DNA of 64,000 nt. Origin: Eutreptiella sp. 'Long Island Sound 2002'. Taxonomy: Eukaryota; Euglenozoa; Euglenophyceae; Eutreptiales; Eutreptiaceae. The stretch spans positions 162,572,576 to 162,636,575 of the forward strand of contig OZ038378.1 in the NCBI GenBank assembly GCA_964036045.1, given 5' to 3'. The notes beneath the pieces were generated by a model that saw only the letters and a program-made list of their open reading frames with translations, did not search any database and had not been told where the DNA came from. The translations under genes and the position numbers were made by a program. Of this stretch, positions 592 to 43,354 are shown piece after piece (position 1 is the first letter of the stretch; each line of letters begins with the position of its first letter).

Positions 592-614
592 CCAACTCCC
601 AACTCCCAACTCCA
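587..614. repeat. heptamer repeats at the CD/A deletion junction
   Basis: Three copies of AACTCCC (587-593, 594-600, 601-607) are followed by AACTCCA (608-614). Left of them is CD LTR sequence ending GCAAACTC. Right of them is A LTR sequence that in the complete LTR starts 447 bp in (22678). The complete LTRs have a single such heptamer, so the extra copies were made at the junction. This looks like a microhomology repair scar that removed the outer end of A's 3' LTR. Confidence 0.8.
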
Positions 615-3104
615 CTCTGAGCCAGAGATATGGCCCCGCCATTATCACCCAGGAGTTGGTAGCTGAAAATGGGCTGTTTCAGCCCAAACTGAAGTTAACT
701 CCAAAATTCCCAAAATTGACCCCTCGTCCGGACCCGCCAGAGGTAGGGACGAGGCAACTGACCCTATGCCCTTCGAGTACGAACTCCCTGGAGCCCTCAC
801 CCAACCTGGTTCCCTCTGAGGTCCCGGCATCAGGGCAACACGGATGAGTCAAGTGGGGTCATGATGCCAAAATCACCAAAATTGGCGTCATTCCCACGCG
901 TGGCTCGCTCGGCCAAGGTAAGGCCAATGGCTCACAGGGTAGGAGGCAGGACCTAGGACTTATATCTGAGTGTACAACTTGGGTTTAGGTCCGGGCTCCC
1001 TATGGGCTTAGAGAAATGGGGCCGCCAATTGACCACACGGAAGGGGGAAATTGGGGTCCCAAAATTGGGTCATTTTGGCTGCCTGAAATGAGCCAAAATT
1101 CGGTGTGCTCCCAATAGTATATCTCCACGCCGGCTTGGAGATCGGATCCGCCATTCCATACGTGATCCACCGGGAGTCCAACGGAGACTCCCATGCCCTT
1201 GGCTCTCAAAGATCTCCATGCCACTCGGCGTGGTGACGATCCCAATTGGGTCCACAAATGCAAAAATGGCAAAATTGCCCATACTCAATTTGGCCTAGCG
1301 CCTTGACGAAGGCGGCTCCGCTTCGCCCACGTGGTGTGTGGACCATGGGGACCATTACCCATAACACCCATGTCATATACGGTCCATTGGTCCATGCGTC
1401 CGGCGTGCACGAAGGTTAGAACATGGGGCACGGCGGGCAGCGAAAGTGGAAAAAAAGCTCAAAATGGCCAAAATTGCGCACACTCATGGTTAGGGCAAAT
1501 GAGGCACATGCCCGACTCGGACCGGAGTGTGCCATAGGATTGGTATCAAGTCATATATGTCCAACATATCTTTGGGGCGTCGCCCAACTCCTCCGGTATT
1601 GGGAATGGCAGGGTCGCCAAGTGAGCCCATGATTTGGGATAGTCCCAAATCGCCAACATGGCGGCCACGGTATGCCAAGCCTAAGAGGAGTTGTTCGCCG
1701 GGTCCAAGATATGTTGGCTACCGCAGTATGTACCCTCATAACATACTTGGGTCATGATGTCAATTGAGCGCAACGTTGAGATATACGTTCGCCACTTGAC
1801 ATCGTGACGAGCCAAAAATGGCAAAATTGGCACAAAGACACACAAAAGTGCATTGAAAGGTGCACAATTATATTATAATATCTTTGGCTTGGTTCGTGCA
1901 ATCAACTAATCCTTCTAAACACAATGACTTGACACCAATGACCTTCGATCCCACATATGTGCTCCACTTGGGGCGCCTTGAAAGGTTACGAGCGCTGCTT
2001 CCCAAGTGGGCACATGAAAATATGGAAAAATGTAAAATACACACCTTGCTCCCAACGCATCGCTTCGGGATCACCACACGAGCTTCCCTTCACGAAGGTT
2101 AGGCTTGCAATTGACCGTAGGGAGTACGGAGAAGGGGCTTGCACAATATGAGGTCCATTGGCGGGCTTGGCTTGGAGTAATGGACCCGCCAAATGGGCAC
2201 GCAACACAACACATGGCACATACCATATATTGCCCAAAAAAGTAGCTCCCACCACGATATGTCATGCCCCTCCAAGGGCATAACTTTGTGTCAATCGCTC
2301 ATAGGAACTCAAGGAGAGTTCCTATGCAACACCAACACTTGCGCGCTACACTCGAAAGTTATCTTAACGCACGCAACATCATGGCCAAAGAGTTATAACG
2401 CAAACTCTACCCTCTTGACCATGATCCATTACACTAGCGCGCATGTGTGGAAACGCAAGGCATATAAAGCTTCCTAAATTACGTCGGGAGTATTGTGAAT
2501 ACATCCCACGTTTCCTTATCGTCAATACTCGCAAGCAACACGAGATATGACCTTCACAAGTGGCCTCACGAATCAACTTTGTTTTGCCCATATCTTTAAG
2601 ACAAATGGAGGGCAGGATAAAAGGGAAGTTGATTCGTGTATACGGAAGCACGTAGGTCCACTCGAAAGAGGTCAAATCAAGTGCGGCGATGTCGAAGTCG
2701 AAAATCCGATTTCGACATCCTGAAAAATTCGGATTAAGGTTGCGAGTATTAATTATGAAAATTGCGGAAGCATCCATGCAGTTCCTGGCGACTTTGGAGC
2801 CTTCGTCGCGGATAGCGTTAAAATTTCCATTATAAACAGTTAAACTGGCGGTTACGGTAAAGTCGCGAACCAACCGCCAGCAGTCAAAACAGTGAGTATC
2901 AGAACGGAAGCGTAAAAATTGACGGAAACAATATGAAAATAAAACCCTGTTGATTCCTGATATTCTGATACACAAATCTCCGCTGGCGGTGCATCGGTTG
3001 CCGATGCGGGGCTTCACGGCACGGAACACGCCGTGCATGGGGTTAGTGGACCGGAGACCGGTTGTATGCCGTAACCTGGCCATGGGGTTCTGGGTACCGC
3101 TTCA
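605..3104 (-). repeat. 3' LTR of gypsy element A (outer 447 bp missing)
   Basis: It aligns without gaps to 22678-25177, the 5' LTR of the same element, with six substitutions seen by eye in 2500 bp. It ends on the plus strand in CTTCA, the TG...CA terminus read from the element's strand, and is followed at once by the polypurine tract. The first 447 plus-strand bases of the LTR are deleted. The low divergence marks A as a recent insertion. Confidence 0.92.
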
Positions 3105-3115
3105 CCCCCCTCCTT
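3105..3115 (-). other. polypurine tract of element A
   Basis: The plus strand reads CCCCCCTCCTT directly after the LTR end, so the element strand reads AAGGAGGGGGG and then TGAAGCGG, the LTR start. This is the expected plus-strand DNA priming site and fixes the LTR boundary. Confidence 0.85.
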
Positions 3116-3476
3116 AGAGCAAACCCTGGGGGGGCTCGATAACACCCACGCATGGCAGCGGGTACCCAGGACCACTCCCTGAAAGGGGGGGGGGTGTTAC
3201 ATCCTCACTTCAGTATGTCACAGTAAGATAGGTATCCCACAGCGGGATAGGTATGCTGCTGTAACAGCTCGTAGCACATGTATAGTATCAAGTATCAAGT
3301 CCCGGGTCCTGGCGGCGATTGTTCGGCATCCAAAGGACCCGTTAACCCATACCAGGCGCACCGGGTGCCGGCTGCTACGGTCACCACCACAGTGGCAGTG
3401 GCATACACGGCCAACATAGGCGTCACACGACGGCCGAGGTGGCCCCACAAGTCGAGAGCGACCACAAAGATCCATC
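3116..3476 (-). other. 3' UTR of element A, distal part
   Basis: Non-coding sequence between the polypurine tract and the LINE insertion. It matches 32064-32424 of element B closely. It carries a poly-G run near 3185 and a short tandem GTATCAAGTATCAAGT near 3288. The 3' UTR continues at 11328 beyond the LINE. Confidence 0.75.
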
Positions 3477-3492
3477 AGGCTACCCCAAGCTT
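3477..3492. repeat. LINE target-site duplication, left copy
   Basis: AGGCTACCCCAAGCTT, repeated exactly at 11312-11327. The undisturbed site occurs once in sister element B near 32428-32443, followed by CCCAAGG as it is after the right copy here. The 16-bp length fits target-primed reverse transcription. Confidence 0.95.
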
Positions 3493-3757
3493 TTTTTACA
3501 CTTTCTGAGTGTCTATTTTTTTTCGATTGACCCTCAGCATTTTGTTGATGGATCCACCAGTAGTCCAGGCTATTCGGTGATTGGAGAAAATCCTGGGCTG
3601 TTCAAGTTCTGGAGTACTTCCCGCAGTTTTCAAATCATCATCTCAATTCCCGAGTTCAAATCCACGCTCGCAATCTTTCAATTGACGCCAAGCCACCTTT
3701 TCGTTCATCCCGAAAACACCATGAATTTCACCCTATTTGGAAGCTCCAAAGCCGCCG
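3493..3757 (+). other. LINE 5' UTR
   Basis: About 265 bp from the target-site duplication to the first AUG of ORF1. It starts in a T-run shared with the duplication, so the exact 5' base is ambiguous. An out-of-frame AUG at 3721, with A at -3, opens a 70-codon uORF ending at 3933 that overlaps the ORF1 start. If real, it would lower ORF1 translation or force leaky scanning. No internal promoter motif was recognised. Confidence 0.6.
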
Positions 3758-5791
3758 ATGATGGCCTTTCAACGCTATTCAACTATTCTCCGTCACACCT
3801 CTTTCAAAAACACCAAGCCTCAAATTCGCCGTTGCAAACACGCTTTCCGTCACGCCAACTTGAAGCCATTGAAGGCAAAGCACGCCCATCCAACGGTGCG
3901 AGACCTCCGGTTGCACAAAACACTACGTTTTGAGGTGAGCATAGAATTCCTTGATCACATTGAGCCTTCGCCGCCGGAAGAGAGAGATAAAACTAAACCA
4001 AGGCAACGCAAAATTGGAGACGCCCGTGCTTTCATGAAGTTAATGAACGAAATGTTTGTCCCCGCGCTAGCAAACGTATCGGTGAACACCAAAAATGCCT
4101 ACTACCCGTTTGGCCACATAGTCCCTTCCGAGAGCCCGCATTGGGCCTACTACCGGTTTGATTGGGAACTCCCATCTCGCTTTGCCGACGAGCTCATGTT
4201 TAAGGTCCGAGAGTGCGCCCAATTCCTCACCGGAGAACTCCTTGCAATGGACATGCACGCTTTGCCGACTACCGAAGTGTATCGAGCCGTGATCGCTAGG
4301 GACCGAAAGGAAAGAAACAAAGACCTACAAGCTCCGGAAATGCTCACCATGATGATCGCCAACCTGCCCGGTGGACGGGGCGCCTCACCGCCCCTAGGAG
4401 CGATGTTCCGGTCTAAAGATTCCTTGGTCGTGGCGATTGACACCACTCACGCACCGTGCGACGTCATGAAGACCGGTGTCCAAACGTTAGCTATCCGCTT
4501 CTTCCACTCATGCGGCATTGTTCTCTTTCATGGCATAGATGGGCAATTAGTGCGGTTCTCGTCACGATCCGACGGCAACGCGAGGTCCGCGCCTTCGGGC
4601 GCGCCCGAGCGAGCCCACGCGACGCCGGCCCCGCCCTCATACGACTCATCTAAGGCCCCGAAGACCGCCGTGCTCCTAGTGGCCCCAAGATCGGCGCACG
4701 CTCTCGACTTGCGCGTCCAAGCGGGGTTCCTTGGCCCGTACGTGTCGTTCGAGCCCACGAGGCCTCCCTACGAACACCAACAAGCCTACCTCGTGGTCTA
4801 CGAAAAGGGGGAATCCGCGCTGCTAGCGCATGATTTCAAATATGGAGACGCTGCCTTTGCCCCACTACACCGCAACCTCATCGCCCTCGAGAAGATCCTC
4901 CCCGCTCAAGACCCGGATGTGGCCGAGCACGAGCGACCCATAGTGCAGCGCCTCCAAGCGGGAGCCGCCTTGGGGTCCACGGCCTTCGTGTCCCAACTTG
5001 TCACCGCCCTTCGTGAAAGGCCCGCTACGGGGCTGACTGAGCGCATCAGCGAGTGGAACGCGGCACCGGAGGACGCCGGCGCCGCTACGCCAACGCCGGG
5101 ACCAAGCCGCATCGAAGAGATGTCCGAGACCAGCGTCCCGCTGCTTGCTCCACTAGGAGGCGAGGCGACCACCCTCCTACCCCCCGACCACGGTGCCCCC
5201 ACCCCCGCCTCGGATATTCAAATCGACCCCCGCCTCCCCGCTGGTTTTTATTACGTCCGCGACGTATTCTCCGAAAGCCAAGAGGAAACGGTAAAAAAGA
5301 TTCTCCACGACAACACGTGGGAGAAGTACCACGGGCGCTCAGTCCAACACTTCGGCCACGCGTACCTCGGCCCGAGCAAAGTCGCCGCCACGTCCCCCAT
5401 CCCGGAAGAGTTTTCCTCCATCCTCCAAACCTACAATGCCGCGCTGGAGCGGCTAGGCCTCTCACACCCTCCTCCCAACCAAATCACGGGCACAATGTAT
5501 CTCCCGGGAGAGGGCATCGGCTACCACGGGGACGACCCCTTGCTAGGCGACCCAGTGTCCATTTTTGGTTCCCAATCGGACACCACAATGTTCTTTAAGA
5601 ACCCCTCCAACGGGGACTCCTTTCGCATCCGCCTGTTTGCCCGCTCTCTCCTGGTCCTCACGGGGGCCGCACGCCATGAGTGGCACCACGGTATACCTCG
5701 ACGGAGAGAAGACGAAGTGTTTGGGCTAACCGTCCCTCGTACCGTCCCTCGCCTCGCTCTAATCCTCCGACACATACCACAGGCAAGCTAA
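3758..5791 (+). CDS. LINE ORF1 protein with C-terminal AlkB-type dioxygenase domain
   Basis: ORF1 of the LINE, 677 aa from the AUG at 3758; the next codon (AUG at 3761, A at -3, G at +4) is the better start context. Residues 1 to about 490 are basic at the N-terminus and match no domain I recognise; I see no CCHC knuckle. Residues about 494-676 look like an AlkB Fe(II)/2-oxoglutarate dioxygenase: the iron ligands are H590 and D592 in GYHGDD, then H644 in HHGI, and the AlkB signature R-x5-R is R665/R671 in RLALILR. AlkB enzymes oxidatively remove alkyl groups from DNA or RNA bases. Here the likely substrate is the element's own RNA or cDNA in its RNP; that is inference. It ends in TAA, 217 bp before the ORF2 near-cognate start. 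Confidence 0.88.
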   Translation: MMAFQRYSTILRHTSFKNTKPQIRRCKHAFRHANLKPLKAKHAHPTVRDLRLHKTLRFEVSIEFLDHIEPSPPEERDKTKPRQRKIGDARAFMKLMNEMFVPALANVSVNTKNAYYPFGHIVPSESPHWAYYRFDWELPSRFADELMFKVRECAQFLTGELLAMDMHALPTTEVYRAVIARDRKERNKDLQAPEMLTMMIANLPGGRGASPPLGAMFRSKDSLVVAIDTTHAPCDVMKTGVQTLAIRFFHSCGIVLFHGIDGQLVRFSSRSDGNARSAPSGAPERAHATPAPPSYDSSKAPKTAVLLVAPRSAHALDLRVQAGFLGPYVSFEPTRPPYEHQQAYLVVYEKGESALLAHDFKYGDAAFAPLHRNLIALEKILPAQDPDVAEHERPIVQRLQAGAALGSTAFVSQLVTALRERPATGLTERISEWNAAPEDAGAATPTPGPSRIEEMSETSVPLLAPLGGEATTLLPPDHGAPTPASDIQIDPRLPAGFYYVRDVFSESQEETVKKILHDNTWEKYHGRSVQHFGHAYLGPSKVAATSPIPEEFSSILQTYNAALERLGLSHPPPNQITGTMYLPGEGIGYHGDDPLLGDPVSIFGSQSDTTMFFKNPSNGDSFRIRLFARSLLVLTGAARHEWHHGIPRRREDEVFGLTVPRTVPRLALILRHIPQAS

Positions 5792-6008
5792 CCCACGAAA
5801 GCCGGAGGGCCGGGTACCCGCCTCCTGCACTGTCCAGCCCCCTCTACCTGAACACAAAAGGGCCAAGATTCAGTGAACCACTGGCCCAGTCACGGCTTCC
5901 ACCATCACAGGCAAGGGGCTAGACGACGAGCTCACCTCGGCCGGGATACCGGCCGACCAAATTCAGCACTTTCTTTGCCTTAGCCAGCCCAGCCAGCCCG
6001 GCTCCCCA
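5792..6008 (+). other. LINE inter-ORF spacer
   Basis: Between the ORF1 stop (TAA, 5789-5791) and the GTG at 6009. The ORF2 frame is closed by TGA at 5874-5876 and open from 5877, with no AUG. A frameshift from ORF1 therefore cannot make a simple fusion. ORF2 needs reinitiation, a near-cognate start or another internal entry mechanism. Confidence 0.75.
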
Positions 6009-9000
6009 GTGCCCCCCCAGCCCCCCCCTATCCCGCCCCCCCCGAGATCCAAAACGCGCCTACGGAAGGGTTACCAACGGCCTCACCGCCCCCCCATACC
6101 CCTCCCTTCAGAACTGCGTTTTCTATCCCACAACTTGCAGAAGAAACCCATAGTGAGCAGCCAAATTCTCCGACACCTCAAGAACGACTTCGACATCCTC
6201 TTCCTCCAAGAAATCAATCACGCCCCCATCCTCCCCCACGTATACGCCTACGGTTCGGGCACTAAAGCCACCATCGTTTCGAATATCAGCCAAGACAAAC
6301 ACTCCAGAGGCGAGCATGGTTCCGTCTTGGTCTGTTCCCCCCGGCTCTCCCGCTTCGTTACCCCCCTTCCCCGACTAGATACAGAAGGGATGCTGGCGGC
6401 AGCCGTTCTCACTCTCCCGGGGGCCCCGCCCACCTTGCTGGTCTCGGTATACGCCCCAAGCACGGACGTCCACCGCTCAAAAATTGAAAACATCCTACGG
6501 CCACTCATGCATCAGTATCCTAACCACGTCCTCGGTGGGGACACCAATTGCATAATGTGCCCTGAACTAGACGGATCGAACCTCCAAACGGACAACGAAT
6601 GGCCGTGGCTTCGCAGACAGATCACGAGCGACCCGCCGCGTCTCATCGATACCTTTCGGCACTTTCACCCGACCGAGCGGTCCTTCTCCCGATACCCCAC
6701 CCCGTACAGGGCAAGCAGTAGCCGCCTTGACCATATTTTGCTCTTCCCGGCGGCCTCGGAATTTTTTGCCCCCACCTCTGCAACCATCCAAACCGACGAC
6801 AAAACGTCAGACCACCACCCAGTCACGTACACCTCTCAAGTCCCCCCTCACCCTTTCACCGAAGCTCCCACCACTAAGAGGAAAGTTTTCCGAAAACTGA
6901 CGGAGCGGGAACGCTCCAATCACCACGACTCCCTTGCCCCCCTGGCGCGGTGGTGCGAGTCTACCCTCCCCCGCTTTGAGTCCTTGTCCTCGGCGGACAT
7001 CGAGCTTTTCACAGACGTGGTGCTGGAGGAAGTGGCGACCAGTTACCACAGTATCACCACGCCGTCACGCCCTACCTCCTCGGCTCTGGTAAGGAAAATC
7101 AAAGAGTCCCTGCAAACCCTGCCCCCCCCCAACCATCCCAACTACCCCGCTTCCATGGACACGCTCAACAAACTCGTCAAGGAGTGGGAAACCAAAGTGA
7201 ACAAGGCCGCAACCACCAAAATCCATCGGTGCCTAGTGAGGAAAACTAGGATCAAACGCACCATCAACGAGGCGCTCAACCCCGTGGAACGAGGTGAAAT
7301 AACGCTGAAGCGCCCGGGCACCACACAGCTCGTCTCCACCCCCAAAGAAGTGGGCTCTATTTTCTCTTCTACACTCCTCACCCTGGGGGGCAGCCTCGAA
7401 TATGCACCGCCGAACACTCTAGTGGATCGCCTACTCGCACACTCCCCCGCCTGCCCCGAACCCACAAAACACGGCCTCCTCCCTGACATTACCTGGGAAT
7501 CGTTACGCAACACGCTTAAGAGGTCCAAGCCCAACAAGGCGGGAGGGCGGGACTTCACAAACATCTACACTTTGCACGTCTCTCCCCCCCCTATCCAACA
7601 ATTCATTTGGAAGGTATGCAACTACTACCTCCACCGGCCGTTGCCCGAGAAATGGCTCGAAGCCAACATTATCTTGCTTTTTAAGAAAGGGGACGTGATG
7701 AACCCGGTGAATTACAGGCCTATAGCCTTGCTGAACAGCGTTTACAAAATAATTGCAACACACGCCAACCGAGAACTACTGGCAGCGGCCATTGAACATT
7801 CCATCATACACCCCACCCAGTTCGGCGGGCTTCCGAACCGCAGATGCCAGGACCACATTTTCAACCTCTTATCCACGTTTCGGGAATCGGTCGGTAGCTA
7901 CAGCCTCTACATTGATTTCAATAAGGCTTTTAACTCCGTCCCCCACACCACCCTCTTCACCGTTCTATCCCGCCTGAACTTTCCTACGCCCCTTGTAAAC
8001 CTCATTCAATCCTTGTACCGTGCCCCTCGCGACTTCCCAGTGGTGTCAGGTCAAACCCACTCCTCACACCTGCAAACCAGAGGCGTTCGGCAAGGATGCC
8101 CCATGTCACCAATCCTTTTCTGCCTCTACCTGAATGTGCTCCTCTTCGCCTTGCCGTCCCACGTCACTGCACCCCCCTCCTCACACGAATCGGGCCACGC
8201 CTTTGTTGACGACCTCCTCTATCGATCAGAGAATGGGGACCGCATACAGCAAGTTTTAAACTTCTTCGACACGGTCGCCAGGGAGTGGGGTCTAGACCTT
8301 AACCTCAGCAAAACCGAGATCCACGCTATGGGAACAGCTCCCCCCAGAACCTTCACCTCCCCCTCGGGCACCCCCCTGTCGACAACAAACCAAAAGACGG
8401 GGCAACCACACAATTGCTACAAATACCTAGGGGTATACATCTTCACCGCCAACCATGAGGCACAAACACTGGCATTGGCCAAGTCGGAAATACGCTCATT
8501 TTTCACAACCCTCCAACCCCTCCAGCTCACCCTTTCGGAATACATTCTCTTGGTGAACGTCCAACTCATCCCTATTCTTTCCTACCGCCTCATGGCACAC
8601 CCCCTGGCCCTGAACGAGTTGGGGGCCCTTCAGGCCATGATCTGGCAAAATGTTGCGCATGACCCCTCCCCGGACAGAGCCAACAGGATCTCCCGCCTCG
8701 TCTCCCCTAAGGCCCGCTACACCCCTCGCCACCAGGGAGGCTTAGGACTCCGCCACTTCACTTTTTCAATTTGCATGGCCCTGGTAAACACCGCAATAAG
8801 GTACCTCAACGGAGACGGCCCGGCCTCGACAAACGAATCTTTTTCCGAAGCAATGCTCTCCACCACACGCAACCCAATCCAAGACACCATCATGGACGCA
8901 TGCCACACCATAGGCTTCCGATACCACAGCACCGGCCTCTGGGCCTCCTGCCCCCCCTCCCTTTTCCTCCCAAAAGAAAAAGTCCAGGTCCGGTTCCTAG

Positions 9001-10922
9001 CCACCAAGCCGGCACCACAATACAGCAAGTTCGGCAACAGATTAAAACGGACGCCCCAGGACCTGGGGTTCCACCTAGGTACAGTCACGGAAGTGCACTC
9101 AGAATCGGCCACACTCCAGTTCTCGGACGGCACCACCCACACCATCAAAAACCCCGGTCTCCGCCGCAACGAGAAAGAATACACCTTTCAAAACCCAGCC
9201 ATTTCTGTCCTCCCTCAACTGGCGGGGCGCCACGAACTGCTCACCCCCCCCCTTCTTCACCCTCAAGAATACATCCTCAACCCCCCCCCCGGGCCATACG
9301 GCGGGGTCCTACTCGACTCGTCACTGCATGGCGAGCTGTACCGGCTCCCAGATGAACCTCACTCCCTTGACCCCGACGACCTCGAAGAATGGGGTTGTGA
9401 AGCAGCCCTTGCCCTCCTCCTCGCATCGTCCCCCGGCACGACATGGGTGTACTTGGATGGCTCAGCGGGCGCCTTGGGCTACGGATCGGCGGCCACCCTG
9501 TTTTTTCCAAATGGCTCCAGATGGGTACTGTGCCAAACGTCCCCGTACCAGTCATCAGAGGGATCGGAGTTCTGGGCCGCTATTATGTTCCTACGGTGGG
9601 CCCTTGCATCTCACCCGCACCTCACCTTCGCCGTGCTAGGGGACAACCTCCACGTTATCACTGTTCTCTCTCCGGACACCCCCCCAGGCCTCCCATCACG
9701 CTCGCCAGCCGGCACGTGGGAATCCTCTCTCCAGTCCGTCCAGGCCTCCCTACGCCCAGGGATGATCCAGGGTTGGGGGTGGATCAAGGGGCACGCCGGG
9801 TTCGTGGGGAATGAAATCTCAGATGCTTACTCAAAGTGGGCCGCCCACGTGATGGTCTGGGACCCCTCCCTCCTTCCCCCCCCCCCGATAGGGTGCATAT
9901 CCAGGGGCCCCCTCCCAGTCATACACAAATTGACTACAACCTCAATCAAGCATCTCCTCCCTCGCCACAAACACGAAAACATCCACGCACCGTCCAGCTT
10001 CCATTTTTACAATCACACTTCGTGGTTCAAAGGCCTCCCTTTCAAATGGTCCTCCGGAAATTTCAACATGGCGCCATTTGCTTTCCACGACGACTTGCGC
10101 CCTCGCCATTGCCACGCTTGCCCCGACCCACACCCGATGGATGTTATCTCTTTCGTCTCACACTGCCCAACGTGCGAACACCTGGTCCAAACCTACATTC
10201 AATGCTGGCGCCCCCCCTTCACCACGGTGGTGTCCCAATGGTGGTCCGCGACCACACACGTGGGGGAGAGACGCAATTTCGTCCGGGGGCTTGTTCCCAT
10301 GACGCTGTACACCAAACTCACAACCCCCCCCTCCGGCCGAAGAAAACCAGCACACTGTCACGACTTAAAACTCGCCCTGAAGGATCGTGTTCCCCTGCTC
10401 CTCAGCGCCCTATACCGCACGCTGGAATGGCTAAAAGACCACCCCCCTCCAGCCCCGCTCACCCCCCCTACGGGCCCCAACTCATGGGGACGCCCCTGGT
10501 CGCCCTACAGCACGTCGCACACCGCCCAACAACGCCCCTCCCCCGCCTACCACCCTCCCCCCCCCCTCCCGGACAAAGTTGCACACAAGCCCCCAAAGCG
10601 CCCCCGCCCCCCATCTCCTGCGGCACACACCAAAACTCGAAAACACGGCCGCCAGCCCCCAAGGCCCGTCCGGCCTCTATCACTGAAACGCGGTACCGCA
10701 AGTCAACCCCAGCCAGAGCCTCCGCCCCCCAAACGGCCGCTCACAATCAGGGACATGTTCAACCTCCCCCCCCCCCCTAGACCAGCACCCCCCCTCGCCG
10801 CCTCCGCCCCCATTTCCGCCCCTTCTCCTCGCATAACAAGGTACTTCGCACCAGCCCCCCCCTCCCCCGCGAGCACAAACTCACAATCGTCCTCACACTC
10901 GTCCAACGTGTCATCTCTGTGA
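6009..10922 (+). CDS. LINE ORF2: APE endonuclease, reverse transcriptase, RNase H
   Basis: About 1637 aa counted from GTG at 6009; the frame is open from 5877 and no AUG precedes the endonuclease core, so the true start is unknown. Residues about 35-275 are an APE-type endonuclease (LFLQEIN, GGDTN, SRLDHIL, S267-D268-H269-H270), which nicks target DNA. Residues about 540-860 are the reverse transcriptase (FGGLPNRRCQDHIF, RQGCPMSP, catalytic F732-V-D-D735, YLGV). RNase H follows, with D1150, E1187, D1212 and D1272 as the expected acidic residues. A Cys/His cluster (CHAC...H...C..C) lies near 1375-1395. The last 200 residues are rich in proline and basic residues, with a PIP-box-like PRITRYF near 1607-1613. 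No internal stop or frameshift is seen; it ends in TGA. Confidence 0.95.
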   Translation: MPPQPPPIPPPPRSKTRLRKGYQRPHRPPIPLPSELRFLSHNLQKKPIVSSQILRHLKNDFDILFLQEINHAPILPHVYAYGSGTKATIVSNISQDKHSRGEHGSVLVCSPRLSRFVTPLPRLDTEGMLAAAVLTLPGAPPTLLVSVYAPSTDVHRSKIENILRPLMHQYPNHVLGGDTNCIMCPELDGSNLQTDNEWPWLRRQITSDPPRLIDTFRHFHPTERSFSRYPTPYRASSSRLDHILLFPAASEFFAPTSATIQTDDKTSDHHPVTYTSQVPPHPFTEAPTTKRKVFRKLTERERSNHHDSLAPLARWCESTLPRFESLSSADIELFTDVVLEEVATSYHSITTPSRPTSSALVRKIKESLQTLPPPNHPNYPASMDTLNKLVKEWETKVNKAATTKIHRCLVRKTRIKRTINEALNPVERGEITLKRPGTTQLVSTPKEVGSIFSSTLLTLGGSLEYAPPNTLVDRLLAHSPACPEPTKHGLLPDITWESLRNTLKRSKPNKAGGRDFTNIYTLHVSPPPIQQFIWKVCNYYLHRPLPEKWLEANIILLFKKGDVMNPVNYRPIALLNSVYKIIATHANRELLAAAIEHSIIHPTQFGGLPNRRCQDHIFNLLSTFRESVGSYSLYIDFNKAFNSVPHTTLFTVLSRLNFPTPLVNLIQSLYRAPRDFPVVSGQTHSSHLQTRGVRQGCPMSPILFCLYLNVLLFALPSHVTAPPSSHESGHAFVDDLLYRSENGDRIQQVLNFFDTVAREWGLDLNLSKTEIHAMGTAPPRTFTSPSGTPLSTTNQKTGQPHNCYKYLGVYIFTANHEAQTLALAKSEIRSFFTTLQPLQLTLSEYILLVNVQLIPILSYRLMAHPLALNELGALQAMIWQNVAHDPSPDRANRISRLVSPKARYTPRHQGGLGLRHFTFSICMALVNTAIRYLNGDGPASTNESFSEAMLSTTRNPIQDTIMDACHTIGFRYHSTGLWASCPPSLFLPKEKVQVRFLATKPAPQYSKFGNRLKRTPQDLGFHLGTVTEVHSESATLQFSDGTTHTIKNPGLRRNEKEYTFQNPAISVLPQLAGRHELLTPPLLHPQEYILNPPPGPYGGVLLDSSLHGELYRLPDEPHSLDPDDLEEWGCEAALALLLASSPGTTWVYLDGSAGALGYGSAATLFFPNGSRWVLCQTSPYQSSEGSEFWAAIMFLRWALASHPHLTFAVLGDNLHVITVLSPDTPPGLPSRSPAGTWESSLQSVQASLRPGMIQGWGWIKGHAGFVGNEISDAYSKWAAHVMVWDPSLLPPPPIGCISRGPLPVIHKLTTTSIKHLLPRHKHENIHAPSSFHFYNHTSWFKGLPFKWSSGNFNMAPFAFHDDLRPRHCHACPDPHPMDVISFVSHCPTCEHLVQTYIQCWRPPFTTVVSQWWSATTHVGERRNFVRGLVPMTLYTKLTTPPSGRRKPAHCHDLKLALKDRVPLLLSALYRTLEWLKDHPPPAPLTPPTGPNSWGRPWSPYSTSHTAQQRPSPAYHPPPPLPDKVAHKPPKRPRPPSPAAHTKTRKHGRQPPRPVRPLSLKRGTASQPQPEPPPPKRPLTIRDMFNLPPPPRPAPPLAASAPISAPSPRITRYFAPAPPSPASTNSQSSSHSSNVSSL

Positions 10923-11311
10923 AAAAGCCACACTTACACATTTTCTCACGCCGACCCTCGACAGCCCTAGCGGCGCAATCAATCAGTACTACCACACTGG
11001 CACTCACCAGTCACTTCTGCAAATGAATCCCTCCCCCAAGCCACCCCCCGTGCTCAAGCCGTCATGCTCTAACCCCCAATCCGCAACCACACCGCCTTCG
11101 GGTATCAAGCAGAGACCCCGGCCTGCGGTTGTCTATAACGGGGCTGCCAAGTCTCTTTGAGATGAAGCAGACGAGGACAGCAACGTGCAGCGGTACTCAG
11201 CCCGCGATTGAACTTGATTTCGGGCTCCCGCCCCCCCCCAAAAAAGCTTGGCGCGCAAGAGCCTTTCTCCCCGGCCTGGCCAGCCACAAAAGGCGCCGTT
11301 CAGTGCAAAAA
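10923..11311 (+). other. LINE 3' UTR and short A tail
   Basis: About 390 bp after the ORF2 stop, with C-runs near 11230 and a terminal run of about six A before the right target-site duplication. No AATAAA signal was seen. Nothing else is recognisable. Confidence 0.75.
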
Positions 11312-11327
11312 AGGCTACCCCAAGCTT
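11312..11327. repeat. LINE target-site duplication, right copy
   Basis: Exact second copy of the 16-bp AGGCTACCCCAAGCTT at 3477-3492, preceded by the A tail and followed by the undisturbed gypsy 3' UTR. Confidence 0.95.
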
Positions 11328-12431
11328 CCCAAGGCCCGCCGACTGGGGAGAGTCCCCACGGGTCCTTCCTCGGGCGCACCATGTCCATATCCATACGACG
11401 CGAGTCCAGAGTGCCATAGTCGAACTCCTTACGAACCCCAAATCGTAAGGGAACTCCTCCTGAAGGGATCGGGCATCAAGGCCGTCTTTTCCCTCGCCCT
11501 ACTACCACGAAGCGTGGCCATACATGAGGGAGTCCTCATGCAGTGTGGGCGGAGGCGTCGACTCCTCAAACCACCAGTTTCCCAGGCAGACTGACCGAGG
11601 TCAGGAGCACCGGAGGCCGCCATCCGAATGCAAGTGCGTCTGCAAATCGGTAGGCTCACACTGGGACTGACAGTGGCGGACCGCTGGGAGTGTAGTCAGG
11701 CAACTGGGCTTCCCGCCTGGCGCCATCAGGATCTCCACACACACAGCGAATAGGGCAACACGGTATCGCGGGCACTCAAACAGTAGAATCTGTAATCAAG
11801 TACTGGTCCAGGCTGGACCAGGCTGTGAGGATATGTACACGGCGACTCAAGGCGCTTCTGTATCCCGATTCGTGGTGAAAAACAGTCCATCTCTCAGCGA
11901 TGGGCTGATGACACTCAACATACAGATGCACATATCCTGGAGGGCAGAAAAACAAGCAACAATTCGGGTAAATAGGCGTGTAAACACACTCAGAACAGAG
12001 TGCCAAACCACGCCACGGTCAGGATAAGGCAAATGCAGGAGGATGGACAGGATAACGCCTGAGTTCAGGCATATATAGTCTCGAGACACACGTCGACTGG
12101 CCTGGATTCCGCAAATGCCATGGAACCAGACCACACACCAAAAATTCGCAATGCCGATGACAGCGGCATCCGTTGCGCAACGTCGTATGGGCTTCAAGGC
12201 CCCAAGAGCTCAGAATTATGAAGGTCAGTCGCCCTACCTGGTTTCCCAAGGATTCAGCAGGGGGGGTGAGTGACGAATAAAAGAAGAGAGGGGCCATCCT
12301 CCTCTGGATTCAGCAGGGGGGGGTATATGGCCACTCTGTCACCGAAAGATGGAAGAGAGCAAGCAAGTAAGGGACGATTCGTCGGCCTCACAAGCGCTCA
12401 CAACACATCAGGGGAGAGCCCAGGGCGCTGA
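11328..12431 (-). other. 3' UTR of element A, proximal part
   Basis: Non-coding continuation of the gypsy 3' UTR, aligned with 32444-33549 of B. It contains a direct repeat of GGATTCAGCAGGGGGGG (near 12250 and 12305). Together with 3116-3476 the family's 3' UTR is about 1.5 kb. Short open frames here are not conserved as proteins and are not called. Confidence 0.7.
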
Positions 12432-15400
12432 TCAGGCACCCCTGGCTGCAATCGCCCGGGTGAGTGCTGCCAAGTCCGAAACGTGGATCTTGGTCTTGTT
12501 CTTGCGGATGTACTCCATGAAGGGAGTATTGACCCGCGGCACAAACGAGGAGACGGGTTCCCAGGTGTCGTGGGACGGCCCATAGCCTCGCCAACGAACC
12601 TTGAACTCCAGACCTCCGGGTGCCGAGGCCTTCGGACGCTGAGCCAGGATCTTCTCGACAGTATAGTCGTCCTGCTCAGCATAGTCGTCGTCCGAATCGG
12701 CCTCATGTTTGGCGTAGTCCAGGGACACATGTCGGCCACGGAGGTCGGGTTCCCGCACACGGAGTTGACTCTCGTGGCGCTCCCGGAACTGTCCGTGACC
12801 CACTTTGATGCGGTAAGTGTCCTCACCAATCCTGCGGACCACCTCGCCGGGTGTGAACCAGGTTTTGGTGCGGTGGGTGCCCATGGGGCGGGGTCTGATC
12901 ACCCACACCGGGTCTCCCACCCTGAACTTCTGCGCTGTCGAGCTCGGGGCGGACTTCTGACGCTCAGCATGCTCCTTCTCAAGCTGCTGGCGGATGTCCC
13001 GCGCCGTTTGCTCTTGCCGCGCGAAGAACTCCTTGGCATCCATAGCCATGCCATCACCAGACAAGGGAAGTCCCCTACCCAGGGGGTCCCTGCCAAACAG
13101 AATCTGGTGAGGGGACAAACCGCCCGGAGTGGGGGTGTCATGATGGGCCTTCAGAGCAGGCCACATCTCCTCGAACCAGTTCCGCCGTGGATTGGTGATG
13201 TGGATCTTGCGCAGCTTCTCGAACAGCTGCCGTCCAGCCACTTCAGCACGGCCGTTAGACCGGCTGAGATAGGCCACGCTCTTGGCATGACGTATCCCCA
13301 TGAGGGAACACATAGCCTTGAACCAGCCACCAGTAAACTGGGGCCCTCGGTCACTGCAAATGGTGCGGGGGATGTCAAAGACGGTCAGCCAATGACGAAT
13401 CATCATGACTGCCACTTCCTTGGCAAGCAACCCCTTTTTGCGTGCCGGAACGGCTACAACGTAGCCGCTGTGGCGGTCCACACAGAGAACCACACAGTCA
13501 AAGGTCTCCTTGCCAATGTGCACTTCGGGCATGGAGAAGACGTCCATGGCCACGCTCTCCATGGGCTGGTCAGGAACCGGGGTCCATTGGGGTTCCCCCT
13601 TGACGTTCCGGTTGTCGGGATTGCAGGCCTGACAGACCGAGCAACCCTTCCTGACCTTCTTGATGGCGGTGTAGAGAACGATATGGTCGATCTCGAACCG
13701 ACGCTGCATGTCAAGAGCTTGCTTCTTGACCCCTGGGTGCAGCATGTGGTGGTGCCAAGCTTCACACAGCTCGAGCACCCGGGACTCTGGGACTAGCAGC
13801 TTACCATTCCGGTAGAGCTTGCCATCTTCCTCAGTCAGCCCCTTTGGCCACTTCTGCCCGTCGTCAGGGTCGGTCACAGCCCTATACTCGGCCGCAAAGG
13901 CCTCAGACTTGGCGTAATCGTCGGTCCAGTCGTCCTGGAGGCAAGACTCTGGGAAGAGGTGCTTGTCGGACTCCACTCCCACAGGGGGTGCCGGACCGGG
14001 CCTTCCGCCCGCGGCACCCACAGGGGCGAGTACACTGACCGCTCTGCTCACCCTCGATGCGAGGGGGGCATCGGCAGCCATGACGACGAAGCATTTAACA
14101 TCCTCCTCCTCCATCAGGCGCTCCATTTCAATGATCTTCTTGGCTTCAGCGGTCTCAGCCTCATCGCCATGGGCAGAGATATCCTGCATGCCCTTGCTGG
14201 CGGGATAGGCCCACCTACTGAGACAGTCCGCCACGGTGTTATCCTTTCCAGGAATATAGACAACCGTAAGGTCGAACTTGGCCAAGGTCTCATGCCATCT
14301 TGCCCGTCGGGAGGCGGGACCTGAGGGGGTGTCCACGTGCTCCTTGTGCCACGACTGCAGACTCTGATGGTCGGTGCAGACGGTGACGGGATGGAGGGCT
14401 ATGTACCCAGCCCATTTCCTGAGAGCCATGACGATGGCATACGCCTCCTTTTCACGGGGCGTCCACGTCCGTCTCTGGCCTTCCGCCAGGACTCGGCTCC
14501 AGAAGGCCACGGGCACGTGCCTCCCATCGTCAAGCACTTGCTCCAACACAGCCCCAATGGCGTAGTCGGAAGCGTCGGTGCGCAGGACGAACCCTCGGTC
14601 GGGATCCACGAGGTGCAGACCCACTGCGGATAGCAGCGCCTGCTTCATCCCCTCAAAGGCACGGTCGGACTCTTCAGTCCAGACCAGAGCCTTCTTGGAC
14701 CCCTTCTTGGTCTCCTCTCGGTTGCCCTTGAGCATGGTCGTCATGGGGGCTGCATACTCGGCATACATTTTGATATACCCCGAGTAGTAGTTGCAGAACC
14801 CCAGATACGCCCGTAGCTCAGAGACCGTTTTGGGCTTTTCCCAGTGCTCAATCGCAGCCACCTTGCCAGGTATGGGCTTTCGCTGCCCGTTCCCGACTAC
14901 GTGGCCAGCGAAGACCACCTCGCTTACCGCAATGGTGGCCTTGTCACTGCTGCCCGTGAGTTTGTGCCGAACCAGAAGGTCCAGCACTCGAGTGACGTCC
15001 CTTTCGTGTGCCTCCAGGAGCTCCTCGTAGCTCATGCTGGGGTCCCCGGACGCGATGATCACGTCGTCCACGAAGGGGTCCGCACAGTCGCGCACCGGCT
15101 CAAGCAGGTTTTCCAGCATCCGCTGAAAAGCCGCATTGCCGTTGGTAACGCCCATAGGCATCACCTTCCACTGGAGAGGTCCAAGTGGGGTGCTCATGGC
15201 CGTGCAGGCACGGGACTCTTCGGCGAGAGGCATCTGATGATAACCATGTTTCAGGTCAATCACCGTGAAGATCCTCCGCCGGTGTTGCTTTTGCAGCATG
15301 TCCTCAATGAGGGGCAGCGTATAGCTGTCGTGCTGCGTTTGGGCGTTCAGGCCGCGGTAGTCGACCACGAGCCGCCACTCACCGGCAACCTTCTTGGGGA

Positions 15401-17453
15401 CGACGAAGCAGGGAGAGGCCCATTCGGAGTGGCACGGCTCGAGCCAGCCTCTCTGGATGAAGTCACGGAGGATCTTCTCCATGGCCTCTTTCCTCTCGCC
15501 CCTCAGGGCAAACTCCCGGTGACGATACACACGGGGGTCCTGCTTCAGTCGTATCTTGGCCTCGCCATACGGTCCACGCACGGGTGGGGGAAACACAGGC
15601 TTACCGCTGAAGAAGGTATCACCATACTTCCGCTTCAGCCTGGCCCTCAACGCCTGGATCTTGGGGCAGTCATCGGAATCCGCCTTGGCTTTTCCGGGCA
15701 CTTGAACCACGGAGCTTACTTGAGGGGTAGCGACCCCGCTCGCTTTCGGCTCAGGCGGTCTTCCCAGGTGGCCCAAAGGGCCATCTCTGGTCTTGCCCCG
15801 GAACAGATCGCCGTAGGTGGGTGGGTTACCGCCAGGCGGCTCGTCTTGGCTGGACATGTGATCCAGCACCCTCTGTACGAAGGTGTTCCCGTCATAGGAA
15901 CCAGAGACGATTGAGTCCACTTCCCACCAGGCTTTGTCCTGGCCTTTGCCCTCACGCTGGTTTCCCCAGTCGTGAAAGGGCTGATCCATATACCCCTGAA
16001 CCAGATCCCACTCCTCCTCAGTGAGGGGGTCTTCGGAGTCCGATTCTTCGATGTCAACAGGGGGAACCGCAAAGCATTGCCGCCATGGCTCTGCTATGAT
16101 GCGGTTGACACACACGAAGTCCGTGGTGTCGGCCTGATCAAGGCCCCCATCCACATAGTGGAATTCTGTTGGCCATCTCTGGGGCGGCATGGGCTGTCCC
16201 TTAGCGTCCTGATAGACACTCTCTCCAGCCGGTAGGACGACCTTGTTCAAGGTCATGTTGGTCCATGAGGCTACCCAATGTCGGGTACTTTCCTCCTCGG
16301 TGCATCCCATAGGAACAACCAGCACTGCCTTGGAGCGGTCCTTGCGAATCTTCGCTATCGCTCTTGGAATGTCCCAACGGGGGCAATGGATCCACATCAA
16401 TCCCTGATGCGGACCCCAGTGCTTCTTCCACGCGGAGTCCTGGGCGCTCCAGTACTTCTCACATACCCGCAGATGGGCGGAGGTTCCTGAAGAGAACGCA
16501 TCCAGGGCCAGATCCGACGCTCCCAGGTCCGTGACCACTCGGTACGCCACTTCCGGCCTTACGCCGTACTCCTGGTTCGCTGGCCCAGTAGGCTCAGTGT
16601 CCAGCGCGGCCACTTTGAGCTGATTGCGTTCGGGGTGGATCCATTGGCATTCCACATGGTGCTCAGGTGACGAAAGCCACGAGAGCTGGTCGTCCTGGTA
16701 CAGGGTCATGGAGGCCTGGGCCGGGAGGACGCCGGAGTCCGTCTCCATCATGAAGTCGTACCCGACGATCATGTCCCAGTCCATCTGGGCCTCGTAGAAG
16801 CTACCGTGCAGGAGGATTTCCTTGCCGAGGTCTGGGCGGCTCAGCTCACGATGGTTCACGAACTGCAGCCCAATGGCCGCTTCCTTCGTGCCTCCCACCA
16901 TGTACTGGCCGTTCGCCACCTTCAGCCTGACAGGTTTCCGACTGTCGGTAAGACACTATGGCGGAAGCAGGCCAGCCTTGACCAAGCTGACTTGAGCTCC
17001 CGTGTCGACCAACACGTCGAAAACCTTTTCCACTTCCCCGCATAAGGCACGGACCTTAAGATGCAACTGCCGCTCGCGACCGACACGGCGCACGGCGTGC
17101 AAACTCAGGATCTCCGGCCGTTCCAGAAGCTCCACAAGCGACTGGTGCAGGTCGTGGACAATGGGCTCAGGCTGCCCATCTGCAGCATCCAGCTGCGGTC
17201 CGGGTGATCCTCCGATACTCTCGGATAGATCCTGTAGTACATCAAACACGTTCTTGGTCGCGAAGGACGGACGGGTGCAAGGGTTCGTGCCTTCACTTGC
17301 CCTCACCCCGCCTCCGCGACTGGGCGCCAGACCGGGCCTTCCGCCCGCGGCAGTCCCCTTGTGTTTACCGACTCCCGACAGGGATGGTTCGGCGCTTCCC
17401 ACGTCACCATCCTGCGACCGCCCTAGCTGGGGCCCTTGGCTGCAGGGGCTCCG
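12432..17453 (-). pseudogene. pol: gypsy element A pol, with an in-frame UAG
   Basis: Pol of element A, translated as a readthrough extension of gag (same frame after the UAG at 17454-17456). Order: linker, retropepsin (DTGA), reverse transcriptase (FVDD), RNase H, integrase (zinc-binding H/H/C/C, DDE core), chromodomain near the C-terminus, ending in TGA. It differs from B by a G-to-T change on the coding strand that turns a glutamate codon (GAG) into TAG at 16956-16958, just after the protease motif. If UAG terminates, only about 165 codons of pol follow gag and the RT and integrase are lost; the long downstream frame (12432-16919) has no native start. If UAG is suppressed or recoded in this organism, A could still work. 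Confidence 0.88.
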
Positions 17454-17459
17454 CTAGGG
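17421..17459 (-). promoter_or_regulatory. gag-pol UAG readthrough signal, element A
   Basis: The gag stop is TAG at 17454-17456 followed by CGG, and pol continues in the same frame. CCCUAGC (17453-17459) can pair with GCUAGGG (17421-17427) across 25 nt. The arrangement is identical in B and CD. Confidence 0.7.
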
Positions 17460-20400
17460 GGCGTCGGTTGTGGAAGAGGGGGTGTTCTCCTCGGCCTCAA
17501 CGTCGTTGACGCCCTTCTTTCTTCCCCCTTTACCTCCTCCTTTACCCTTGTTCTTGTCCTTGTTCTGGTCATTCTGGTTGTTCTCCTTGTTCTTGTTATC
17601 CGACCTGGGGACCCAGTTCCGCTTGATCTCCTGGATCTCCTTGGCCAACTCGGTTCCCACCGACGACATCAGCTTGGCCAGCTCGTCCTTGTCCACCTCC
17701 ATCTTGGTTTCCCGGATACCCGCGGGCGCACGCTTCTTCGACCCGTGCGCCTTCTTGTAAGTCTCCGTGTCGGCCTTGTGGACGGGGCATGTTCGGTGGT
17801 CATGGTTGAAGCCTTTCTTCCTCCCATAACACACGAAACAGCCCTGCGGGTGAGCTCGTATGAACTCCCCAAAGGACAGCGGAGGGTCGCCAATACGGCG
17901 AGGGTCCCTCTTCTCCTGCTTCTTCCAACCTGGCTGCAGGGGCTTCCAGTTTGCTGGCTTGGTCCCCGCGCTCAGGTTCTTGGCCACGAAGGCACACACG
18001 GCCATTTCGGCGGGCTCATCGTCGTCGTCATCGTCGACGAGAGTCTCATCGCCGCCGGCTCCCGCTGGGTCCATGGCAGATTCCCCGCCAGGCCCCTCGC
18101 CAACGTAGTTGACGTCGCGGTCGCCGGGCCTCAACCCGCGGGTGTGGTGGAGGTTTCGGTACTCCTTGAGTACTTCCTCGCCAACCCACTCCAGGATCTC
18201 GTCGCAGCTCATCCGCGCCGGGATGGGCTGCAGACGGATGGTCTGGCCGCTCAACTCACAGTCGTCAAGGCGCCAAATCGCGGTCTTCTCGCGATCGCCC
18301 GAGACGGTGATGAGAAGAGCGTTCCGCAGGGAGTGCCGTTTGACATCCCGGGCCACGTTCTTCTTCGCCCAACTCACCACGTTCGTATGATACTCCTTGG
18401 GGAGCATCATCTTGACCGTGTGGTTGGACTTGGCCCTCTTGGATTCCTCCTTGGTGACCCTCTTGATCCATGCTTCCGGTAGCATGGAGAGCAGGCGAGC
18501 CTGCTCGTCACCCTCGTTCCAATCCTCCACGTTGCGGCGGAAGAGGGTGTATTTCCCACGGAAGTCACGCCATTCCCGTAGGCGGATCTCCCGTCCATCA
18601 TGCTCAAGCTTGATGGACTTCCAGCGCTTGGCAGCCACCTGCGGAGCGTCCACCCGCTCCTGCTCGTTGAGCCACTTCTTGGCGTCCTTGAGGGTCTTGA
18701 TTTTCCCCTCCTTGGTCGCCACGAAGTATAGCTCGCCGAGCACTTCCGGCAGGCGGTACCTGAACCGTCTGAAGACATATCTCTCCGCATCCGCGGGAGG
18801 TTGGTCTTCAGTGACGGTCAGCCCCCAATCGTCCAGCTTCTCCAAGAAGCGGTCGAGGTTGAGGGGGTTGCCATCGTACATGGGGGGCTTGATGTCCTTC
18901 AAGTCTTCCCACACGGCGGCGTCTGCGGCCTTAGAGACCATGAACGCCGGCCGCGAGGTCGACCGAGGTTCCCATCGGCCTCGCCCACGGACTCCCACGG
19001 CCGCCACGTCCATCTCCTCCATGGAATCCCTGTGGCTACGCCGCGGTTCCTCCACGTACGCTGAACCGAAATGTTCACGCCGTACTGCATCCATGTACGC
19101 ATCCTCATCACGGCGCCGGCGGCTGCGTTCAGCGGCCTCCCGTCGTACACCCCGCGGCGGGCTGATGTCGAACTCCTCCAGGTCCAGGTCCAGGTCCAGG
19201 TCCTCACCTTCGCCGACATCCCACTCCACGTCTCCTCTGGGGACCTCATCCCTGAGTCCACCATAACGCCCTCCAGCCCTGGGGATTGACACCGGGGCTG
19301 GTGGCGGGCGTCGGGGGCGTACAGGCGTCCGCGGTGGAGCACGGCGGTTGTGGTAGTCCGCGCTGAGCCACTCATCGCGCCATTCCTCACTGCCACTGCC
19401 GGGCGGCACGCGCTCGTTGCGGCGGCCCGCGCTGTGGTGAGAGGGGGCGGAGAGAGAGGGGGCACTGGCGCTGGGGCGACTCCTGGGGGCTCCGCCGGGG
19501 GCGTGGGGTCTGCCTGGACCTGGTCCGGGTCCCCAGCCGTCGTCCGACGAGCCAGACTCCAGGGGTGGGTGGTCGCTGCCGACTCTCCCACGGGCTTCCA
19601 GCGCATCCAGCCTCTCCTGCAGGCCGCTGACGACGTTGGTCAGCGACTTGGTCTCGGCCCTGGCGATGTCCAAGTCCTTCTGCGCGCGCGCGGCGACCGT
19701 GGAGATGCGAGCCATCTCGCTCTTGCCCGTGTCTACCTCCAGCTCGAGCAACTGGACTCTCCTGCGGAGGTAGACAATCCACCGCCAGGTGGCATCCGGG
19801 ACACCGTTCCCTGGTGGGTCGCCGGGGTCCCCAGGGGGTCCTCCAGGAGGGCCTCCGCCGGGTCCGCCCGGTCCAGGGGGTCCTCCCCCGCCCGGTGGTC
19901 CGCCTCCAGGGGGTCCACTTGGTGGGCGTCCTCCAGGGGGTCCTGAAGGTCCTCCGCCAGGGGGTCCCGGTGGGTCTCCGCCGGGTCGCCTCGGTGGGTC
20001 CGAGGATGGGCGCCTCCTCGTGATGCCGAAGTCCATGTCGTCATCCTCGTCCATGTCGCCCCACCTGGGCGTCTCGGTCACGGAGGACTCGGAGCTCCGG
20101 TAGGGAGGAGGGGGATCCTCATCCTCACCTTCCATGGGGACGTCTCCGCCACTTCCGCCCGTCCAAGCCACCACTTGGCGATGTCGACGGCCTCGTTCAT
20201 CCCCGTCACTGGCGGTGAAGAAGGGGTCACTGTCGTGGGGGTGCCCACCCGCTGGCCTCCGCGGCCTCTCGGGGGTCTTCCCCTTGCCCTTCCTCCGTCG
20301 ACGGGCGGTGGTGCTACCGCTCCCACTGCTGCCCGTGTCCGCCTCATCCAGCTTCATCCTGGAGGAGGCGTCCCCTTCGAAAAGCCTTCGAAGGGTCTCC

Positions 20401-22219: not shown

Positions 22220-22230
22220 TGAAACGCTTT
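22220..22230 (-). promoter_or_regulatory. self-complementary primer-binding site, element A
   Basis: Immediately after the LTR end on the element strand: AAAGCGTTTCA. It is perfectly complementary to TGAAACGCTTT inside the LTR (22343-22353). It does not begin with TGG, as a site for a tRNA 3' CCA end would. This is the arrangement of self-primed Tf1-type elements. Confidence 0.7.
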
Positions 22231-32052: not shown

Positions 32053-33549
32053 CCCCCCTCCTTAGAGCAAACCCTGGGGGGGGCTCGATAACACCCACGC
32101 ATGGCAGCGGGTACCCAGGACCACTTCCTGATAGGGGGGGGGGGGGGTGTCACATCCTCACTTCAGTAAGTCACAGTAAGATAGGTATCCCACAGTGGGA
32201 TAGGTATGCTGCTGTAACTCGTAGCACATGTATAGTATCAAGTATCAATTCCCGGGTCCTGGCGGCGATTGTTCGGCATCCAAAGAACCCGTTAACCCAT
32301 ACCAGGCGCACCGGGTGCCGGCTGCTACGGTCACCACCACAGTGGCAGTGGCATACACGGCCAACATAGGCGTCACACGACGGCCGAGGTGGCCCCACAA
32401 GTCGAGAGCGACCACAAAGATCCATCAGGCTACCCCAAGCTTCCCAAGGCCCGCCGACTGGGGAGAGTCCCCACGGGTCCTTCCTCGGGCGCACCATGTC
32501 CATATCCATACGACGCGAGTCCAGAGTGCCATAGTCGAACTCCTTACGAACCCCAAATCGTAAGGGAACTCCTCCTGAAGGGATCGGGCATCAAGGCCGT
32601 CTTTTCCCTCGCCCTACTACCACGAAGCGTGGCCATACATGAGGGAGTCCTCATGCAGTGTGGGCGGAGGCGTCGACTCCTCAAACCACCAGTTTCCCAG
32701 GCAGACTGACCGAGGTCAGGAGCACCGGAGGCCGCCATCCGAATGCAAGTGCGTCTGCAAATCGGTAGGCTCACACTGGGACTGACAGTGGCGGACCGCT
32801 GGGAGTGTAGTCAGGCAACTGGGCTTCCCGCCTGGCGCCATCAGGATCCCCACACACACAGCGAATAGGGCAACACGGTATCACGGGCACTCAAACAGTA
32901 GAATCTGTAATCAAGTACTGGTCCAGGCTGGACCAGGCTGTAAGGATATGTACACGGCGACTCAAGGCGCCTCTGTATCCCGATTCGTGGTGAAAAACAG
33001 TCCATCCCTCAGCGATGGGCTGATGACACTTAACATACAGATGCACATATCCTGGAGGGCAGAAAAGCAGGCAACAATTTGGGTAAATAGGCGTGTAAAC
33101 ACACTCAGAACAGAGTGCCAAACCACGCCACGGTCAGGATAAGGCAAATGCAGGAGGATGGACAGGATAACGCCTGAGTTCAGGCATATATAGTCTCGAG
33201 ACACACGTCGACTGGTCTGGATTCCGCAAATGCCATGGAACCAGACCACACACCAAAAAAAAATCGCAATGCCGATGACAGCGGCATCCGTTGCGCAACG
33301 TCGTATGGGCTTCAAGGCCCCAAGAGCTCAGAATTATGAAGGTCAGTCGCCCTACCTGGTTTCCCAAGGATTCAGCAGGGGGGGGAGTGACGAATAGAAG
33401 AAAAGAGGGGCCATCCTCCTCTGGATTCAGCAGGGGGGGGTATATGGCCACTCTGTCACCGAAAGATGGAAGAGAGCAAGCAAGTAAGGGACGGTTCGTC
33501 GGCCTCACAAGCGCCTCAAGGCACATCAGGGGAGAGCTCAGGGCGCTGA
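32053..33549 (-). other. polypurine tract and 3' UTR of element B
   Basis: The polypurine tract is 32053-32063. Then about 1.49 kb to the pol stop: a G-run near 32137-32150, the intact LINE target site (near 32428-32443) and two GGATTCAGCAGGGGGGG repeats (near 33368 and 33423). No protein-coding signal. Confidence 0.8.
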
Positions 33550-43343: not shown

Positions 43344-43354
43344 TGAAACGCTTT
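43344..43354 (-). promoter_or_regulatory. self-complementary primer-binding site, element B
   Basis: AAAGCGTTTCA directly follows the LTR on the element strand. The LTR holds its perfect complement at 43467-43477, 113 bp in from the LTR edge. Same layout as in A and CD. Confidence 0.72.

Follow-up and report, generated by a model that had tools for sequence, protein, structure and literature searches.

In the orchid Phalaenopsis, a Ty3/gypsy retrotransposon has captured an AlkB open reading frame in which the cofactor residues are kept, and the encoded protein binds RNA and demethylates m6A RNA in vitro (PMC9289625). Plant RNA viruses (Alphaflexi-, Betaflexi- and Closteroviridae, cited in PMC9289625) are AlkB-bearing RNA replicons as well, and RNA repair has been proposed as the function of the viral domain. 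A further transposon-borne 2OG-Fe(II) dioxygenase is the TET/JBP enzyme of fungal DNA transposons (PMC12730594, 2025). The ORF1 of LINEs is likewise a site of accessory domains (e.g., esterase, PHD; PMC3905857, PMC4120745); neither of these two papers contains the word AlkB. For Diplonema, a dozen AlkB homologs are mentioned, with no link to LINEs in the passages concerned (PMC10161547). In a search of the PMC literature for transposable elements with AlkB or dioxygenase domains, no title or abstract opening reported an AlkB domain in a LINE. The reviews of Iyer and Aravind cover the diversity of AlkB proteins and may mention retroelements.

Judged from its sequence, the LINE analysed here has an ORF1 whose C-terminus is a true AlkB domain in which no catalytic residue is missing, and this is a property of the whole family. 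The domain looks capable of removing methyl groups from RNA or DNA. The element was found in a window of 64,000 nucleotides of Eutreptiella DNA (the whole stretch that was analysed), and all features given below lie on the forward strand. It occupies positions 3493..11311 (7819 bp) inside a gypsy-type repeat, as determined from the breakpoints of a self-BLAST of the window and from the junctions. In this comparison, positions 604-3492 pair with 29553-32442 and positions 11312-25177 with 32427-46300; the repeat match thus stops at 3492 and restarts at 11312, and in the uninterrupted, near-identical copy the two parts overlap by the 16 bp of the empty target site (32427..32442). The same 16 bp are found, identical, at both junctions as 5' (3477..3492) and 3' (11312..11327) target-site duplications. 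The 3' end of the insert is a short A run, and LTRs are absent, the direct repeats between 2500 and 12400 being at most 39 nt long (20 largest of 40 families). Because of the perfect 16-bp duplication, the empty site and the domains of ORF2 (see below), the element is a full-length LINE insertion with target-site duplications. Such LINE insertions arise via target-primed reverse transcription.

The interrupted element is a gypsy element according to a Pfam search with the frame 12435-16919. The gypsy-type repeats of the window (11312-25177, 32427-46300, 46632-57682) are mutually 93-98% identical, share nested segments of ~2.9 kb and a long Pro/Gly-rich frame, and encode a chromodomain polyprotein (Pfam was run on 12435-16919 only). 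Another, different gypsy-like polyprotein frame is located at 59828-63955. The N-terminus of one ORF1 relative (P0039) resembles this frame by eye, a hint that a gypsy-like element of this type has received a LINE elsewhere too. Rfam at gathering thresholds gave no match across the window.

ORF2 is open from 5877 to 10922. It encodes an endonuclease domain (Exo_endo_phos, 6126..6815, coordinates by arithmetic; Pfam E 2.4e-7) and a reverse transcriptase domain (RVT_1, 7686..8438; E 7.8e-32), both exceeding the Pfam cut-offs, followed by an RNase H domain (9441..9839), which scored 22.7 bits in the whole frame and 27.1 bits in an excerpt and so exceeds the cut-off of 25.8 in the excerpt only. 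The best PDB match of the reverse transcriptase is LINE-1 ORF2p (E 4.8e-19), and the R2 protein was matched too. The frame starts 85 nt beyond the ORF1 stop, and its first in-frame ATG appears only at 6390, inside the endonuclease domain; ORF2 may be translated from a non-AUG start codon or by another route. The relatives of ORF2 include one cluster of 372 members that is 99% identical and another family of 30 members at 47%. The nearest proteins outside its own family are P0045 (47%) and P0046 (32%); for the 47% sister family of P0045, no ORF1 was found in protein searches with ORF1, ORF2 and the AlkB region. The longest contigs of P0045 and of the AlkB-bearing P0003 are equally long (526387), so the two LINE families may share one genome.

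The sequence-only reading had placed ORF1 in a frame of 677 aa starting from the ATG at 3758 (3758..5791). This frame agrees with the relatives only from ~3875 on, and the start proved to be wrong. The relatives' ORF1 begins with MNFTLFGSS, corresponding to position 3721 of the window and, in the 984-aa P0001, to residue 82, and is thus ~903 aa long; the residues ahead of this motif are a read-through of the 5' leader and, in some relatives, of the flank as well. The ATG at 3758 lies in another frame than the relatives' ORF1, and the first 39 residues of the 677-aa frame are non-native. In the window, the N-terminal piece of ORF1 (frame 1, 3721..3933) matches P0001 and others, is native up to 3879 (residue 134 of P0001) and then continues out of frame to a stop, whereas the match resumes in frame 2 at 3875 with residue 347. 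The internal deletion at 3875..3879 removed ~640 nt that are retained in the relatives (a size derived from protein alignments, not from DNA). As this frame-shifting deletion splits ORF1, the window copy is, by its reading frames, a damaged member of its family, broken upstream of AlkB. A different internal piece of ORF1 is missing in the relative P0002.

The part of ORF1 upstream of AlkB matched no Pfam family and no PDB sequence, both at E up to 10. A resemblance to an RRM noticed there by eye is unsupported. The sequence-only reading also had the AlkB domain stand in place of the usual zinc knuckles. Neither P0001 nor P0003 (5 and 7 Cys) contains a CCHC-like pattern; a Cys/His cluster is present near the C-terminus of ORF2 (10110..10181, from a pattern scan of P0043 and placed by offset).

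The AlkB-type 2OG-Fe(II) dioxygenase domain itself extends over 5240..5788, within a few residues of the 5243..5788 proposed before, and is supported by matches to Pfam and to PDB sequences as well as by profile and fold comparisons. The putative iron ligands are H590-G-D592 (codons 5525..5533) and H644, the second H of HHGI (5687..5689), followed by the signature R665-x5-R671 (5750..5770; this codon position and that of H644 by arithmetic). Counted from the ATG at 3758, the signature was exactly as first described, and its residues align with those of AlkB relatives. The domain alone matched PF13532 (2OG-FeII_Oxy_2) with 34.4 bits (E 3.2e-8), above the cut-off of 31.2, so the absence of an AlkB match, which had been named as a possible refutation, did not materialize; the whole 684-aa frame (3737-5788) scored 31.1 bits, slightly under this cut-off. 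The PDB sequences matched included Schizosaccharomyces pombe P8A3.02c (Ofd2, 3.3e-13), human ALKBH8 (3.8e-12) and human ALKBH6 (2.8e-9). As the bare spaced motif was present in 20 of 2000 shuffled sequences, it would not suffice as the sole evidence. A profile built from six other AlkBs (one bacterial, five from viral contigs) gave the domain 79.3 bits, compared with 4.8 for the best of 2000 shuffles, and these profile scores together with the fold match rule out a chance motif. Structure prediction recovered the AlkB fold: the predicted model matched ALKBH8 (3thp/3tht), ALKBH6 (7vjs/7vjv) and Ofd2 (5yl6/5ylb) with 26-32% identity in the structural alignments, and also ALKBH5 and the AlkB regions of leafroll-virus polyproteins. 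To obtain this good model, AlkB rows from outside LINEs had to be included; prediction from a single sequence gave a poor one (pLDDT 33.9). There was no match in NCBIfam, searched with the domain, or in PHROGs, searched with the domain and with P0001.

What could an AlkB enzyme do in such a position? The sequence-only reading had it protect or de-modify the RNA or cDNA of the element, or counter a methylation defence. LINE ORF1 proteins typically bind or coat their own RNA, and for this reason an AlkB fused to ORF1p would sit on the template and would act in cis on the RNA of the element. There it would remove base methylations, the most useful targets being marks on the Watson-Crick face, e.g., m1A and m3C. 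Since m1A and m3C hinder reverse transcriptases, the element would profit if its template were freed of them ahead of target-primed reverse transcription or while it proceeds. A cloning study that used the LINE-type R2 reverse transcriptase reports that m1A hinders reverse transcription and that AlkB removes both m1A and m3C; AlkB treatment improved the capture of 3' tRNA halves and changed the capture of intact tRNA only modestly (PMC12140624). The R2 study and the orchid gypsy precedent are the reasons for favouring RNA demethylation in cis. We estimate the probability at roughly one in two that this element is an endonuclease/reverse transcriptase/RNase H LINE in which a captured AlkB ends ORF1 and demethylates the element's own RNA in cis, chiefly at m1A and m3C. 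Within this proposal, the main alternative would be the removal of regulatory m6A. More tentatively, ORF1p may erase in cis those m1A and m3C marks that hinder reverse transcription and thereby let the reverse transcriptase of ORF2 finish its copy in a host with heavily methylated RNA, which would amount to an epitranscriptomic counter-defence borne by the LINE RNP. It speaks for the proposal that ALKBH8, one of the nearest solved relatives, is a tRNA-modifying enzyme by the title of its PDB entry, and against it that ALKBH8 acts on a substrate other than a methylated base. The substrates of ALKBH6 and Ofd2 are unsettled, which counts against it as well.

Instead of clearing the template, an active demethylase could be directed against epitranscriptomic or epigenetic silencing by the host, its target being m6A on the element RNA or methylation of the DNA at the locus. 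This reading is possible, though we consider it rather doubtful. The orchid gypsy enzyme removes m6A in vitro (PMC9289625), and the predicted fold of our domain matches ALKBH5 as well; however, the nearest sequences are Ofd2, ALKBH8 and ALKBH6, and ALKBH5 is absent from the 15 PDB sequences listed in the sequence search (E up to 10 and up to 1). Similarly, the dioxygenases of the fungal DNA transposons have been proposed to serve the escape from silencing, but that study notes that no retrotransposon with a TET/JBP enzyme was found (PMC12730594).

With the whole ORF1 as query, 42 proteins were retrieved; their identity to it ranges from 98-100% (P0001, P0002) to 65%, the latter across a short piece only (P0042). 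P0001, P0003 and P0031 represent clusters of 163, 121 and 38 members, and AlkB is present in the first two, which are the largest. In the ORF1 and ORF2 searches, the ~8000 candidates sharing most words with the query were scored, at 0.55-1.75 times its length. With the AlkB region of P0001 as query (proteins of ~541-1722 aa), 10 proteins were found, all of the same LINE family and one of them new (P0071). Among these 43 ORF1 relatives (P0001-P0042, P0071), 28 extend beyond 5240 in one frame or another, and 13 of the 28 continue as far as 5788; the remaining 15 predictions, including P0031, end at or before 4970 and are uninformative on AlkB. No full-length copy without AlkB, which had been named as what would make the domain a one-off fusion, was seen among the 43 relatives examined, 28 of them informative. 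The one-off fusion is ruled out, as AlkB is common to a multi-copy family. In nine of the relatives (P0014-P0016, P0018, P0019, P0026-P0029), the frame is left inside or just before AlkB; as the stretch matches in another frame of the DNA, they carry a broken AlkB. P0017 departs from the match at 5545, inside the domain, into 37 unmatched residues. The codon use of AlkB resembles that of upstream ORF1 (correlation 0.82) and of ORF2 (0.84) more than that of the gypsy frame (0.63), which speaks for the proposal.

Outside the family, viral contigs yielded no relative of the AlkB domain, of the reverse transcriptase or of alignment A1, and genome contigs yielded no relative of the reverse transcriptase. 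Alignment A1 matched one bacterial AlkB in the genome contigs, and alignment A2 matched five AlkBs in the viral contigs, none of them in a LINE setting in the stretch around the match. ORF1 had no match in phage records. The compact AlkBs of IMG/VR contigs (L002-L006, about 2998-3570) are 41-51% identical to the Rickettsiales AlkB L001.

The 13 relatives running to the domain end were aligned with the window, giving 14 rows, of which four are near-identical and two (P0005, P0020) have a frameshift in the domain's first part. In this alignment, H590, H644, R665 and R671 are present in 14/14 and D592 in 13/14. With frameshifted stretches masked, the first His is kept in 16/16 rows, the Asp in 14/16 and the other three residues in 14/14, whereas without masking the first His is replaced by P in one row and the Asp by G in one. 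The two replacements of D592 (N in P0006, E in P0012), those in the unmasked rows and the broken ORF1 of the window count against the proposed demethylation in cis. Selection was assessed by comparing proteins only, as the ratio of young-vs-older consensus differences to the private changes of single copies, with five young rows (two being the window's own pieces) and 40 old ones. After masking, this ratio was 0.67 for AlkB (6/182 sites; 110/2241 cells), 0.43 and 0.56 for two upstream parts of ORF1, 1.77 for the linker and 1.59 for the translated 5' leader. For AlkB it ranged from 0.51 to 0.84 over eight settings, and was 0.46 in unmasked rows with P0001 alone as the young reference. The difference between AlkB and the leader, a control of only 33-48 sites, had p 0.040 after masking, and the eight settings gave 0.015-0.065; when leader and linker together served as the control, p was 0.065-0.159. 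AlkB has six subfamily changes, and these are less drastic than the private ones (p 0.038). This suggests purifying selection on AlkB, as a weak signal rather than proof.

The modest size of these statistics would also fit a passenger, i.e., an AlkB gene that was captured recently and brings no benefit to the element; the capture may be recent, since the single domain-directed search found AlkB in no other family. Nevertheless, the domain is present in the two largest clusters (163 and 121) and in every relative that reaches that far (28 of 43), and its catalytic residues are mostly spared, which makes a passenger improbable. Least probable, and in our view quite unlikely, is that AlkB serves mainly as an RNA-binding module replacing the zinc knuckles in ORF1, with no catalysis: AlkB proteins do bind nucleic acid and the CCHC-like pattern is missing from P0001 and P0003, but the catalytic residues, which binding alone would not require, are kept in nearly all covering rows.

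The ORF1-borne AlkB adds a LINE to the AlkB-carrying mobile elements, i.e., to plant RNA viruses and orchid gypsy elements, with the enzyme placed on ORF1p, the presumed coat of the template RNA. It raises the testable question of whether RNA base methylations limit reverse transcription or mark retrotransposons for silencing, and the further one of whether elements evolve erasers of such methylations; other LINE ORF1 proteins are worth scanning for dioxygenase domains. Among the known systems, the Phalaenopsis enzyme is closest in being captured by a retrotransposon. However, it is encoded by a separate extra ORF of an LTR element and resembles ALKBH5-type m6A demethylases (PMC9289625), whereas here the domain forms the C-terminus of ORF1 in a LINE, and its nearest PDB sequences are those of Ofd2, ALKBH8 and ALKBH6. 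These three probably share its fold, as far as the predicted model shows, and its catalytic residues, but are not fused to a LINE protein. The AlkB of plant RNA viruses is part of a viral polyprotein in replicons that, unlike the LINE, do not use reverse transcription, and the fungal TET/JBP enzymes belong to another dioxygenase family and to DNA transposons. Gypsy elements and RNA viruses already being known carriers of AlkB-type enzymes, a LINE would be a new place for one.
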